This document shows, piece by piece, positions 929-7,189 of a stretch of 36,653 nucleotides of DNA. Made by a program: the position numbers and the translations under genes. Origin of the DNA: an uncultured Pseudomonadota bacterium (GTDB lineage: Bacteria > Pseudomonadota > Alphaproteobacteria > UBA9219). A model generated the notes under the pieces. That model made no database searches and was not told the origin of the DNA. It saw only the letters and a list, made by a program, of their open reading frames with translations. The stretch lies in NCBI GenBank assembly GCA_903920205.1, contig CAIXLI010000099.1, positions 1 through 36,653 on the forward strand. The letters run 5' to 3'. Position 1 is the first letter of the stretch; every line of letters starts with the position of its first letter.

Positions 929-1653
929 GCGCCCTCCCCTTCTGGCCTGACGACGGCATTCGCCAAAGTCTCGCTGAGCGCCATGAAGGCGTCGCGGCGC
1001 GACACGGGCGTGTCGAGACTATAAACATCCAGCACACGCGTCGGTTTGTCGCTGAGGGTGACGATGCGGTCGGCGAGGTGAACGGCTTCGTCCAGTTGGT
1101 GCGTGACGATCAAGGCCGTTGCCTTGTTTTCAGCGACATAGCGACGGAGAACTTGTGCCGCCTTTAAGCGCAGCACCGCATCCAGATGCCCTAAAGGCTC
1201 GTCGAGCAGCAAGAGGCGTGGGTTGGCAATGAGCGTGCGGATCAAGGCGAGGCGTTGCCTTTGTCCTCCCGACATTTCATGCGGATAGGCATGTTTGCAG
1301 CCGGAAAGATTCAAGTGATCGAACAAAGCTCCCATATGCACTTTGTCCGGCGGCGCTATGGCGGGGTGCAAGGAGGAAGCCAGCGCGGCGTTTTTCTCGG
1401 CTGTCAGCCACGGCAGAAGATCGCTGTCTTGGGTCACATAGCCAAGCGCAGGCCCGGGGCGTTCGATATCCGAGGTGATTTCGCCCTGTTGCGGCGGTAC
1501 CAAACCCGCCAAAAGCGAGAGCAACGTCGTCTTGCCGCAACCGCTGGGCCCGAGAAGGCAAGTGATTTTGCCTTCTTCGAGCGCCAGATCGACATCCTCC
1601 AGCACAGGGCTTCCAGCGTGGTAGCTGTAGCGCAGATGGGATGCCTTCAGCAT
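925..1653 (-). CDS. ABC transporter ATP-binding protein, SsuB/TauB-like
   Basis: Cytoplasmic ATPase that powers the neighbouring permease. The 242-residue protein has all expected motifs: Walker A GPSGCGKTT near residue 35, the Q-loop region near residue 75 (VTQDSDLLPW), the signature MSGGQRQRLAL near residue 128, Walker B LLLLDEPLGHLD, and the H-loop in VTHQLDEA. The glutamine after VT and the LDAVLR ending are typical of the SsuB/TauB/NrtD group. It sits 5 bases downstream of the binding-protein gene and overlaps the permease by 4 bases, so the three form one transport operon. The assignment as an ATPase is firm; the transported compound is unknown. Confidence 0.93.
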   Translation of the reverse strand: MLKASHLRYSYHAGSPVLEDVDLALEEGKITCLLGPSGCGKTTLLSLLAGLVPPQQGEITSDIERPGPALGYVTQDSDLLPWLTAEKNAALASSLHPAIAPPDKVHMGALFDHLNLSGCKHAYPHEMSGGQRQRLALIRTLIANPRLLLLDEPLGHLDAVLRLKAAQVLRRYVAENKATALIVTHQLDEAVHLADRIVTLSDKPTRVLDVYSLDTPVSRRDAFMALSETLANAVVRPEGEGA

Positions 1654-1658
1654 GGGTT

Positions 1659-2654
1659 TTACTTTCCGTACTTGGCAAAAGCCGCTTCGGCGAAGTGATT
1701 ATCCACGGCGGTTGTGGTCGCTTGCGGATGTTTTAATTCGCCGCTGTCGAGGCGCGATTGCAAGCTGCGCTGCCAAAATTCTTCCGGCACGACAACCGAG
1801 GCCGGATACATGGCGTCTTTCAGCATATGCGCGACAGCGCGTTGGATGGTCGCTTCGCCCAGGCTGGGGAAAAGCTTTTGCGCTGTGCGAACCGCAACGG
1901 CAGGGTCGCGGTACATCGTCGCTATCGCTTGTTGCAAAGCGTTGACCATGCGCTGAGTCCTGTCGGCGCGTTGGGTGACGGTGTCTTGCCTTGCGATCAG
2001 CCCCGTGACGGCTTGCGGTTGCGTGAATTTATTCATGTTCAACACAACGCGATAGCCTCGGCTTTCCGCTTGCGACACCGCTGGTTCCAGATCGACGGCG
2101 ATGTCGGTCTTTCCGGCTTCGAGCAACGCCAGTTGCGTGCCCATCGCGCCTTGAACGATTTGTGTCGTCGCCATCGCGGGCGTGTGGGCTTTTAATCCGT
2201 TGAGCACGGTATAGGTGGTGGAAGGTTCGGGGAACGAGCCGATGCGCCATCCCGCCAATTGCTCGGGCTTTTCAATCACGGGAATGGCGGCGTTGTTCGT
2301 ATAGCCTGCCAAGGCCAGATTGGTGATAAGCATGGCGACGGTTTTGGCCTCGCCCCCTTTTTCGGCGGCAATTGCCGTGAAGACGGGGTCGCCCATGCCG
2401 TAATCCACGCTGCCCGACATGACGGCGGCAAAGATTTGATCGTCGTTGCCGCCAAATTTGACATCGACATCCAAGCCTTGCTGCGCGAAGAAGCCTTCTT
2501 CTTGGGCAACATAAAGCGGTAAATAGAGCAAGAATTTCGATTGACCGAATTGCGCCAGCTTAACCTTGTCCAACGCGGCGGCTTGCGCGGGAGAGGCATT
2601 CAAGGAGCCCAGAAACAAAACGGCCATCATTATCAAACTGCGTAGAGCGAACAT
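1659..2654 (-). CDS. Periplasmic substrate-binding protein, NMT1/SsuA-like
   Basis: Periplasmic binding component of the ABC importer. The 331-residue precursor has a classical signal peptide: positive start, hydrophobic core, and SPAQA ending near residue 25, after which mature LDKVKLAQFGQ begins. The fold markers of the NMT1/THI5-like group are visible: LPLYVAQEEGFFAQQGLDV near residue 43, GMGDPVF near residue 85, and GSFPEPSTTYT near residue 140. It lies 16 bases downstream of the XRE regulator gene and 5 bases upstream of the ATPase gene, all on the minus strand. It is clearly paralogous to the divergent gene at 3068, sharing GDPVF, GSFP-x-PST-x-YT and LEP-x-VS. The substrate is not identifiable. 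Confidence 0.88.
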   Translation of the reverse strand: MFALRSLIMMAVLFLGSLNASPAQAAALDKVKLAQFGQSKFLLYLPLYVAQEEGFFAQQGLDVDVKFGGNDDQIFAAVMSGSVDYGMGDPVFTAIAAEKGGEAKTVAMLITNLALAGYTNNAAIPVIEKPEQLAGWRIGSFPEPSTTYTVLNGLKAHTPAMATTQIVQGAMGTQLALLEAGKTDIAVDLEPAVSQAESRGYRVVLNMNKFTQPQAVTGLIARQDTVTQRADRTQRMVNALQQAIATMYRDPAVAVRTAQKLFPSLGEATIQRAVAHMLKDAMYPASVVVPEEFWQRSLQSRLDSGELKHPQATTTAVDNHFAEAAFAKYGK

Positions 2655-2670
2655 GGTATCTTCCTTTCCG

Positions 2671-2943
2671 TTAGTCGTTTAAAAAAATCTGGAGGCGTTT
2701 TCCTAAAATTTGTGCGGCGTTTTCCATCGTCTGCAGTGTGACCGAGTCGTTGTCAGGATCAAGGAGCCTGTTTAACGCGGCGCGGCTTGTGCCCATTAAT
2801 TCCGCCATCCGCGCACGGGTCATCCCCTGCCTCGCCATTTCTCGTTCTACCTGATAAGACAGCATCCGCTTGACCGAGGAGGCAAAGCCTGCAGGCCAAG
2901 GGGTTTGGAAGTCTTTATCTTGTTGAATGTCCTTTTTCTTCAT
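2671..2943 (-). CDS. XRE-family helix-turn-helix regulator
   Basis: Small (90-residue) DNA-binding protein. Residues about 33-85 form an XRE/HigA-type domain: helices around EMARQGMTRARMAELMG, the recognition helix region SRAALNRLLDP, then SVTLQTMENAAQILG. This domain type is common in antitoxin-like regulators, but no RelE/HigB/HicA-sized toxin gene is adjacent. It is the first gene of the minus-strand transporter operon, 16 bases before the binding-protein gene. It faces a divergent binding-protein paralogue across a short region with phased half-sites. I infer that it controls the importer and itself in response to substrate or need; that inference rests on context only. The start is fixed by the ATG at 2943 in the divergent intergenic region. 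Confidence 0.82.
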   Translation of the reverse strand: MKKKDIQQDKDFQTPWPAGFASSVKRMLSYQVEREMARQGMTRARMAELMGTSRAALNRLLDPDNDSVTLQTMENAAQILGKRLQIFLND

Positions 2944-2965
2944 GGCGTTTACTCATTCTTTAATA

Positions 2966-2993
2966 GTATCTATTATGATACCTATATGTATCA
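2966..2993. promoter_or_regulatory. Candidate operator: three phased GTATC/GATAC half-sites
   Basis: GTATC (2966-2970), GATAC (2977-2981) and GTATC (2988-2992) are spaced exactly 11 bases apart with 6-base gaps, giving two overlapping inverted repeats. The second is 6+6 perfect: TGATAC-N6-GTATCA at 2976-2993. They lie 23-50 bases upstream of the XRE gene start and between it and the divergent gene at 3068. One helical turn between half-sites suits cooperative dimer binding by the adjacent regulator. The binding protein is inferred, not shown. Confidence 0.6.
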
Positions 2994-3067
2994 CAAATGG
3001 TATGTTTTGCAAGCATAAAATTACAATCATCTTTCGTTTCAGTACGTTAGCGGTATATGGTAACACT

Positions 3068-3973
3068 ATGGACAGCATCAAAATCGCAAAATGGGCGGGG
3101 CGACATATTGCCTATATGCCGCTTTTTCTCGCGGATAGGATAGGTCTGTTCGCGGCGCAGGATTTGGATGTCAGGATTTACGATGCGGGCAACGACAACG
3201 ATATTTTCTCGGAAATTGCCAAAGGCCGTGCTCACTTCGGCGTAGGCGATCCAGTTTTCGTCGCGTTGGGGCAGCAGCAAGGCCATGACACGCGTGTTGT
3301 CGCCAGCATTGTTGGAAACGTGCCTATGTGGGGCATTACGCATCACAGCGAGATCAAACCTTTTACGCAGATTTCGGATTTTGTCGGTTTGCGCGTCGGC
3401 TCATTTCCCAAGCCTTCGACCGCCTATACGATGCTCAGCGCGTTGAAGGCGCGGAACCCTCGGCTTTTGAAATCGATGCGGATTATCGAAACGGAAATCG
3501 GGCAGCAGGCTTATCTTCTGGCCTCCGACCAAGTTGATTTGATTTTAGAATTGGAGCCTCTGGTCAGTATGACTCAAAGGCAGGGTTTGCGCGTTGTCTG
3601 CAGCATGAGCGATTTTTATCCCGATTTCCTGATGACGGGATTAATGACCTCGGCATCTATGATCGCCGCCTCGCCGGATGTTGTCGGGAAGGTTGTGCGC
3701 GGGATACAACAAGCTTTGACAATCATCCATGCCCAACCGGATAAAGCCGCCGCTATCGGCTGCGAACTCTTTCCTTCGATCAATGCAAATATCATGAACG
3801 AAGCGGTGCAGCGCATGATCGCGTCGCACGCATGGCCAGAACAAGCCGTGATCTCGCCACAAGGATGGGCGAACACACTGAAGATGCGGCAGGATGTGGG
3901 GGAGCTGACCGCCCTGCCCCCGTTCGATTCCGTGGTCGATCAACGTTTCGCCTATGCGGTGTTAGAGACTTGA
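3068..3973 (+). CDS. Signal-less NMT1-type binding-protein paralogue
   Basis: This 301-residue protein has the NMT1/SsuA periplasmic-binding fold but no export signal: from the ATG at 3068 it begins directly with MDSIKIAKWAG, the first strand of the fold. An upstream in-frame ATG at 2927 would add 47 residues, but it lies inside the divergent regulator gene and operator and gives no convincing signal peptide, so I reject it. Markers shared with the importer's own binding protein include GVGDPVF near residue 60, GSFPKPSTAYT near residue 115, and LELEPLVS near residue 160. It probably acts in the cytoplasm, as a ligand sensor, carrier or enzyme of the imported compound; this is inference. Its last bases overlap the convergent trmL gene by 12. 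Confidence 0.75.
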   Translation: MDSIKIAKWAGRHIAYMPLFLADRIGLFAAQDLDVRIYDAGNDNDIFSEIAKGRAHFGVGDPVFVALGQQQGHDTRVVASIVGNVPMWGITHHSEIKPFTQISDFVGLRVGSFPKPSTAYTMLSALKARNPRLLKSMRIIETEIGQQAYLLASDQVDLILELEPLVSMTQRQGLRVVCSMSDFYPDFLMTGLMTSASMIAASPDVVGKVVRGIQQALTIIHAQPDKAAAIGCELFPSINANIMNEAVQRMIASHAWPEQAVISPQGWANTLKMRQDVGELTALPPFDSVVDQRFAYAVLET

Positions 3974-4411
3974 CGGGCATTGCCTTATCGCTTCGCTCAA
4001 CGCAATGGCGGCGCTAATCGCTACGTTCAAGGAGCGCAAAGGCGGGCGGAGGGGGATGACGATACGCGCATCTGCTCGGTTATGCACATCGTCCGGCACG
4101 CCTGCGCTTTCGCGCCCGACCATCAGAATATCATCGGTGCGATAGGCAAAGTCGGTATAAGGAACGGCACCCTTGGTCGTGAGCAACACCAGCCTGCGCG
4201 TTCCTGTTTGCGCGAGGAAATCTTCCCATGAACGGTGGCGCGTGTAATCGAGGTGGTCGATGTAATCCATCGCCGCACGGCGCAGCCGCGTATCGTCTAA
4301 AGGAAAGCCGCAAGGCTCTATAATATCCATCCCCACGCCCAAGCACGCGCAGAGGCGCATCATTGTTCCTGTATTGGGGGGCATATCCGGTTGATAAAGG
4401 GCGAGGCGCAT
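3962..4411 (-). CDS. trmL: tRNA (cytidine/uridine-34 2'-O)-methyltransferase TrmL
   Basis: SPOUT-class methyltransferase that 2'-O-methylates the wobble base of some leucine tRNAs. At 149 residues it has the usual length of minimal TrmL/YibK proteins. It shows the family signatures: LALYQPDMPPNTGTMMRLCA at the N-terminus, GRESAGVP near residue 97 and IPLRPPLRSLNVAISAAI near residue 118, which form the knotted SAM-binding region. It is transcribed away from the bc1 genes and its 3' end overlaps the convergent binding-protein paralogue. In several alphaproteobacteria trmL neighbours the petABC genes, which fits. Confidence 0.93.
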   Translation of the reverse strand: MRLALYQPDMPPNTGTMMRLCACLGVGMDIIEPCGFPLDDTRLRRAAMDYIDHLDYTRHRSWEDFLAQTGTRRLVLLTTKGAVPYTDFAYRTDDILMVGRESAGVPDDVHNRADARIVIPLRPPLRSLNVAISAAIALSEAIRQCPSSL

Positions 4412-5158: not shown

Positions 5159-7189
5159 ATGGCCCACGACGAACGCGCTCCCTTTAAAAACCCCGTCATC
5201 GCGTGGATCGACGCGAGGCTTCCTATCTTTAGCTTTATGAACAAGGAATACGGGCAGAATCCAACGCCGCGCAATTTCAATATTTGGTGGAATTTTGGCG
5301 CGTTGTCTTTGGCGATGCTGATTATTATGGCTGTGACGGGCATTTTTCTGGCGATGAATTACACGCCTTCCACCGATCACGCCTTCGCCTCTGTCGAGCG
5401 CATTATGCGCGATGTGAAGGGCGGGTGGCTGTTGCGGTATTTGCATGCCAACGGCGCGTCGATGTTCTTTATCGTCGTCTATATTCACACGTTTCGTGGA
5501 CTCTTCTACGGCTCTTATAAAGCGCCGCGTGAATTGCTGTGGCTTTTCGGCGTCGCTATATTTCTATTGATGATGGCGACCGCTTTTACCGGCTATGTTT
5601 TGCCTTGGGGGCAGATGAGCTTTTGGGGCGCGACGGTGATTACCAATTTGTTTTCCGCCATTCCTTTAATTGGCGACGCGGTTGTGACATGGCTGTGGGG
5701 TGGATTCTCTGTCGATAATCCGACGCTGAACCGCTTCTTTGTGCTGCACTTCCTGTTGCCCTTTGTGTTGTTCGGCATTGTGGGGCTGCATGTCGCGGCG
5801 CTGCATGTAACGGGCTCCAACAATCCTTCGGGGGTCGAGCCGAAGAGCGGGAAGGATACCGTCCCCTTTCACCCCTATTACACGGTCAAGGATTTGCTGG
5901 GGATTGCTTTGTTTTTGGCTCTTTACGCGGCAGTCGTTTTTTATGCGCCGAATTTTTTGGGGCATCCCGACAATTATATTCCCGCCAATCCTTTGGCGAC
6001 GCCCGCCCATATCATGCCAGAATGGTACTTTCTGCCCTTCTATGCGATTTTACGCGCTGTGACAGTCGATATCACCGTGCCATTTACCAACATCGTTTTG
6101 ATTTCGTCTAAACTCGGCGGCGTGATTTTAATGTTTGGGGCAACGGGCGTGTTGATGGTTTTGCCGTGGCTTGATCGTTCACCCGTGCGCAGCGGAGCCT
6201 ATCGCCCATGGTTTCGAGTGTTTTTCTGGGTCTTGGTGGTCGATTGCCTGACGCTGGGGTTGATGGGGGCGAAGCCGGTCGAAGAGCCCTTTACGACCAT
6301 CGCGCAACTGGCGACTTTCTATTACTTCTTCCACTTTCTCGCTGTTCTGCCTTTGCTGGCGAAGTTTGAGAAGACGCTGCCGCTGCCCTCTAGCATCGCG
6401 GAATCTTTGTCCGTCAAGAAGACGTTGAGAGTTCTGTTGCCTGTCCTCTTTTTGATCGGCTTGGCGATGCAGGCTCAAGCGGCGGAATCGGACGCTTTTC
6501 CACCGCACCGACCGACAGCAGGATGGGCGCAAGAGGGAATCCTGGGGCGTTACGACCAAGCCGCCTTGCGTCGCGGGTTTCAGGTTTATAAGCAAAATTG
6601 TTCGAGCTGCCACAGTTTGAAATATCTATCCTATCGGCATCTGGCAGCGCTGGGCTACAGCGCAAGAGAAGTTGCGGCGATAGCGGCGGGCAACAACGTC
6701 GCCGACGGCCCCAACGATCAGGGCGAGATGTTTCAACGTCCCGCTCGGCCCTCGGACGCCTTTGTCAAACCGTTTGCGAACGATCAGGCTGCACGCGCCG
6801 CGAATAACGGTGCTCTGCCACCCGATCTGTCTTTGATCGTCAAAGCGCGTCACGGACATGAAGATTATGTCTATTCCCTTCTAACAGGCTTCGATCAAAC
6901 ACCGCCGGAGGGAGAAAAGATTGCGGCGGGGATGAGCTATAACCCCTATTTTCCCGGGCATCAGATCGCCATGTTCGCGCCGTTGCAAGAGGACTCGGTG
7001 ACCTATACCGACGGCACCAAGGCTACGGTCGATCAGGAAGCCCGCGATATTACGGAATTCCTTGCTTGGGCTGCTGAACCGGAAATGGAAACGCGCAAGA
7101 AAACCGGCGTATGGGTTGTGGCGTTCCTTGTCGCTTTGGCGGGCGTTTTATCTTTGCTGAAGCGCGAAGTTTGGAAGAAGCTGGATTAA
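5159..7189 (+). CDS. fbcH: Cytochrome b / cytochrome c1 fusion polyprotein
   Basis: One uninterrupted 676-residue frame encodes both haem subunits of the bc1 complex. Residues 1 to about 410 are cytochrome b: haem ligands H96/H110 and H197/H211, and the quinol-site PEWY at 287-290. Residues about 419-441 look like an internal signal peptide ending AMQAQA. Residues about 442-676 are cytochrome c1, with haem motif CSSCH at 481-485, the axial methionine M605 in a [10 protein letters not shown] context, and a C-terminal membrane anchor at about 650-667. In Bradyrhizobium japonicum fbcH is built the same way and the precursor is cleaved into b and c1. By analogy, signal peptidase should cut after residue 441 here. 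The gene follows petA by 3 bases. Confidence 0.95.

Follow-up and report, generated by a model that had tools for sequence, protein, structure and literature searches.

A signal-less NMT1-fold protein paired with a sensorless XRE regulator: a candidate cytosolic ligand receptor related to an ABC-importer binding protein

Results

The locus and its proteins

The window, i.e. the whole stretch of 36,653 nucleotides analysed here, belongs to a genome of 2.32 Mb that is 96% complete (G000). Four of its genes form a tight minus-strand operon running from 2943 to 176. The first encodes an XRE-type HTH regulator of 90 residues without a sensing domain (2671–2943; HTH_37, 22.8 bits, below the cut-off of 27), and it is followed by the importer's periplasmic binding protein P0002, which has a signal peptide (1659–2654; Pfam, BLASTP and N-terminus proxy), the ATPase P0004 of 242 residues (925–1653) and the permease (176–928), the last two assigned by Pfam and neighbourhood. 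The gene under study (3068–3973, plus strand) is transcribed divergently from this operon and encodes P0006, a protein of 301 residues.

P0006 belongs to the NMT1/THI5-like family (PF09084), scoring 72.4 bits against a Pfam cut-off of 20.5. BLASTP aligned it with P0002 over 300 positions with 98 identities (33%, 189 bits) and two gap positions, and the alignment contains the motifs GDPVF, GSFP-x-PST-x-YT and LEP-x-VS in both proteins. The two are each other's only company in the window genome at E ≤ 0.001. The original prediction that the gene encodes a signal-less paralogue of the importer's binding protein is thus borne out by the open reading frame, the family score, the identity and all three motifs. 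Pfam found no HTH in P0006, and no clear Shine-Dalgarno sequence was seen by eye before 3068.

The gene is under purifying selection, with dN 0.133 and dS 1.196 (dN/dS about 0.11) between G000 and a related genome, G014; the exported binding protein gives a similar ratio for the same pair (0.185/1.64), and synonymous values against a third genome, G017, were saturated. AlphaFold2 run with four sequences gave weak models (pLDDT 49 for the cytosolic and 61 for the exported protein), whose fold matches repeat the family assignment; the CmpBCD structures 9uai, 9uak and 9u9z and an entry titled DszB C27S are among them. When cytosolic and exported proteins were compared in the three importer-linked pairs, the loops after strands were 40–45% conserved versus 31–36% elsewhere. 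This difference is small, and we do not claim a ligand common to both proteins.

The XREs of the loci described here are 90–100 residues long and consist of the HTH only, with no sensing domain, and a TSRAAL-x-RLLD stretch is identical across them. Many plasmids carry HTH genes similar to the window XRE, with at most 59% identity (a Picosynechococcus PCC 7002 plasmid), and on sequence grounds this XRE may be a domesticated antitoxin-type regulator. No toxin gene lies beside the XRE in any of the four loci, the immediate neighbours being binding proteins, importer genes or metabolic enzymes. The window has no Rfam matches. Further along (5159–7189), cytochrome b and cytochrome c1 appear by eye to be fused in a single ORF of 676 residues, following a Rieske-like gene.

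Start site and signal peptide

The reading frame of P0006 is open upstream to 2927, which would yield 348 residues, and the starts at 2927 and 2942 both produce a hydrophobic N-terminus (best ten-residue Kyte-Doolittle mean 2.87), as would be expected if P0006 were exported after all. However, 2927 falls within the XRE coding region, both extensions run across the putative operators described below, and the codon composition of the extension is wrong (GC by codon position 0.21/0.36/0.36 versus 0.57/0.41/0.62 for the gene). The frame is closed four codons before the homologous methionine in G014, and the open upstream frame of G017 is neither hydrophobic nor similar to the extension in the window. 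Export from either upstream start is thus barely credible.

Measured from homologous starts, the four cytosolic orthologues score 0.93–1.57 for hydrophobicity and none has a signal peptide, whereas the ten exported binding proteins whose N-terminus is complete all score 2.29–3.41 and have cleavage-like motifs; these calls rest on Kyte-Doolittle hydrophobicity, a crude proxy, and the binding protein of G008, cut at a contig end, was left out. By the same proxy P0006 lacks the export signal or lipobox of an ABC-importer substrate-binding protein. Hence the absence of a signal peptide, which an upstream start or secreted orthologues could have overturned, stands: none of the upstream starts checked is both conserved and signal-encoding, and no signal is seen in any of the four orthologues. 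Inspection by eye of ten more distant homologues found a Sec- or Tat-like start in nine. The tenth, a distant NMT1 homologue in another genome (L013 of G043, around 1501–2370; 22% identity), also appears by eye to be without a signal peptide.

Distribution of the cytosolic protein and its co-occurrence with the XRE

Searches with an alignment of the cytosolic proteins (A1) found a cytosolic member in four of the 24 family genomes, namely G000, G014, G017 and G007, and in none of the other nine among the 33 genomes of the order. The best match elsewhere, among sampled genomes of the class (385) and the phylum (398) and with the window genome's own two genes set aside, scored 158 bits versus 507–571 within the clade. 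A tree of 15 sequences joins the four as one clade (support 100/98), with a long branch to G007 and without resolving how the clade relates to the order's exported proteins. Viral contigs with matches were not found, tblastn against plasmids returned 27 records, every one below 30% identity, and a scan of genome contigs returned a single locus, L025, which is the G014 contig (80% match).

At E ≤ 1e-6, XRE relatives are present in these four of the 33 order genomes and in no others. Counting alone makes this one of 40,920 possible sets of four, a figure that is not a probability in view of the kinship of the genomes; with common ancestry among close relatives, co-occurrence counts overstate independence. 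G000, G014 and G017 have one and the same arrangement, in which the cytosolic gene is divergent from an operon with the order XRE-binding protein-ATPase-permease. The neighbourhood survey thus confirmed the suspected grouping of XRE, signal-less NMT1 protein and importer in one divergent unit in these three genomes. Five order genomes carry the importer without the XRE or the cytosolic copy, with G029 contributed by the order-wide search as an importer-only case.

The fourth genome, G007, has the pair without the importer. Its cytosolic gene (179–1075 of L033, minus strand) is divergent from a plus-strand operon in which an MDH-like, a pyrE-like and a pyrD-like gene are followed by the XRE as the last gene (1255–4051, contig G007:C118; the first three match their families below NCBIfam cut-offs). 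G007, a draft genome that is 99% complete with 4% contamination, gave neither a further NMT1 match at E ≤ 0.001 nor an importer permease match at E ≤ 1e-5. The cytosolic copy is divergent (31–32% identity) and lies near a contig end. Since G007 keeps the pair without a binding-protein or permease homologue, the conserved unit is the XRE plus the cytosolic binding fold, rather than the binding fold plus the importer.

These patterns bear on two of the possible roles of P0006. As a free-standing transporter regulator, it would dock on the importer ATPases from the cytosol and gate transport by the internal ligand level, an analogy with a direct precedent in the binding-protein-like C-terminal domain of NrtC/CmpC and in keeping with the cytosolic gene adjoining the importer in three of the four genomes. 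However, P0006 has a gene of its own that is read in the direction away from the importer, the five importer-bearing genomes manage without a cytosolic copy, and G007, with its orthologue and XRE, argues against the transporter as the sole partner of P0006. We regard this role as quite unlikely. Still more doubtful is a cytosolic carrier or buffer that would store the imported compound for later use, as had also been suggested. The fold and motifs common to P0006 and the exported protein fit such a carrier, but its predicted dependence on the importer is broken by G007, and neither the persistence without an importer nor the strict co-occurrence with the XRE is explained by it.

The G007 operon and the question of catalysis

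The MDH-like gene of G007 has no close relative within the order, and DHO_dh is matched in this genome by the pyrD-like gene alone. A second pyrD-like gene is present in G014 (L081, G014:C11, 3232–5354), 66% identical to that of G007, after a gene that by eye resembles dihydroorotase, and an ordinary pyrD lies elsewhere in the G014 genome. Because the pyrD-like gene is the only DHO_dh match in G007 and its relative in G014 adjoins the dihydroorotase-like gene, we have weakened our reading of the operon as a specialised pathway cluster to possibly the ordinary pyrimidine genes of G007.

The position of the G007 copy beside these three metabolic genes is one argument for an enzymatic P0006, in which the NMT1 fold would have been adopted for acting catalytically on the compound that is imported. 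The other is that the fold relatives include THI5 and the desulfurization enzyme DszB. In DszB, Cys27 is the nucleophile. P0006 has cysteines only at 178 and 232, neither of them kept in the G007 copy, and therefore has no N-terminal nucleophile of this kind. According to the papers that jointly inform our account of THI5 and of CmpC/NrtC (PMC11349869, PMC6603209, PMC10848271, PMC13249358), Lys62 of THI5 forms the PLP imine and His66 is consumed. The aligned residues in P0006 are Gly60 and Phe64, which contradicts the suggested catalytic role as far as the THI5 type is concerned, and an enzymatic role in general we consider unlikely.

ThiC and the imported substrate

Among the 33 order genomes, the five of family f2 all have ThiC and those of families f1 and f3 all lack it, which suggests that thiamin-pyrimidine synthesis was lost in f1 and f3. 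Every genome with the cytosolic gene or the importer binding protein is ThiC-less, but only nine of the 28 ThiC-less genomes carry either of them. Thiamin-pyrimidine is thus a possible substrate of the importer, as judged from gene content.

Paired operator-like sites between the divergent genes

The shared regulatory region between the divergent genes (2944–3067) contains an exact GTATC-N6-GATAC palindrome (putative operator 1, 2966–2981) and an imperfect copy that starts 22 bp from it (putative operator 2, 2988–3003). Two sites of this type with starts exactly 22 bp apart occur in all three importer-linked loci: at offsets 22/44 in the window (10 and 8 of 10 letters), 35/57 in G014 (10 and 7) and 81/103 in G017 (8 and 9, with a third stretch that scores 7). 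Each of the regions contains the 6-mer GTATCA two or more times, with seven occurrences in total, which none of 500 shuffles matched. Taken alone, the site in the window is not significant (one palindrome with at most one mismatch versus 0.30 expected), and the argument for an operator is carried by the conserved pairing and spacing, not by a single site.

G007 has one such site, GGATC-N6-GATAC (9 of 10 letters), in the region between its cytosolic and MDH-like genes, and no second copy. A promoter-like TTGACT-17-TAAATT, a match near the chance level, precedes it by 5 bp, and scanning the regions of the window, G007 and G014 for promoters gave results at or near chance throughout. Genome-wide, matches to the operator with one mismatch are near the control level (three versus three in G000, five versus three in G014), and further targets of a wider regulon are not claimed.

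Discussion

A candidate two-protein switch

P0006 is real, conserved and probably regulatory, the last to be read from genomic context. The XRE is without a sensing domain, and the pair and an operator-like site are found in all four genomes; for these reasons we read the binding fold as the XRE's sensor, P0006 being a cytosolic ligand receptor that would work with the XRE as a local two-protein switch. We put the chances of this at about even. The XRE of the window would bind the paired GTATC-N6-GATAC sites and thereby repress the operon to which it belongs, and P0006 would bind a small molecule that is imported by the operon or, in G007, made or consumed by it. Depending on its ligand occupancy, P0006 would then contact the XRE, and repression would be released or strengthened. 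The net design would be a split LysR, with the DNA-binding and the type II binding-fold halves on separate proteins and the sensing half presumably copied from the importer's binding-protein family. As for the ligand, the pyrE-like and pyrD-like genes of G007, the absence of ThiC and the THI5 and HMP-binding relatives allow a weak guess at a pyrimidine-like heterocycle.

The role of ligand sensor for the XRE, one of those originally proposed, has gained support from G007, which lacks the importer and yet retains both partners and an operator-like site, albeit the ligand and the contact between the two proteins are inferred. On the other hand, the XRE may by itself control the genes on both sides, the XRE family is widespread, including the plasmid XREs of up to 59% identity, and G007 contributes a divergent copy near a contig end and an operator with one mismatch and no partner. 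More tentatively, the pair can be seen as a regulatory cassette moved between operons, made up of a sensorless XRE repressor and a free receptor descended from ABC-importer binding proteins, and put in charge of the importer in three genomes and of pyrimidine-type enzymes in the fourth.

LysR and LacI regulators have binding-fold domains similar to the binding proteins of importers, and we know of no intermediate that still has its receptor as a free protein. If the sensor reading is true, the XRE and P0006 would be such an intermediate between importer binding protein and fused sensor domain, caught in place, and transport proteins could become sensors of transcription factors as separate subunits. 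The pair would also provide a compact sensor that lends itself to testing, complete with a candidate operator, and would be a warning that annotated signal-less 'ABC substrate-binding proteins' may be regulators. An NMT1-XRE pair was not found described in titles or abstracts of the open-licence PMC literature, outside which most subscription papers lie.

Comparison with known systems

P0006 shares its family and fold with periplasmic NMT1 binding proteins (SsuA/TauA/ThiY-like, PqqT) and differs from them in having no signal peptide. With the HMP-P synthase THI5 it has in common the signal-less NMT1 architecture and a weak sequence match, but Lys62 and His66 are replaced as described above, and it does not qualify as a member of that enzyme type. 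In LysR-type regulators an HTH and a type II binding-fold effector domain are joined in one chain. The XRE and P0006 combine the same two elements, except that these are encoded by two genes, the HTH is of the XRE type and the putative sensor is derived from NMT1 binding proteins.

The nearest described relative in concept is the C-terminal domain of CmpC/NrtC, which, in the papers cited above, is a cytosolic binding-protein homologue with a regulatory role in cyanobacterial bicarbonate/nitrate ABC importers; a review among the sources reports that the CmpC domain senses nitrate and that nitrate binding frees the ATPases. P0006 is likewise a cytosolic homologue of its importer's binding protein (33% over 300 residues) with a type II binding fold. 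Unlike that domain, which is fused to the importer ATPase, P0006 is free and divergently encoded, and the ATPase P0004 has only 242 residues; its family is moreover tied to the XRE, with the importer present in three of the four genomes and missing in G007. By analogy, the CmpC/NrtC domain would support a regulatory role for P0006 but points at the transporter. Since the ligand of the CmpC domain differs, in that account, from the compound transported, the ligand of P0006 may also differ from the substrate of its importer.
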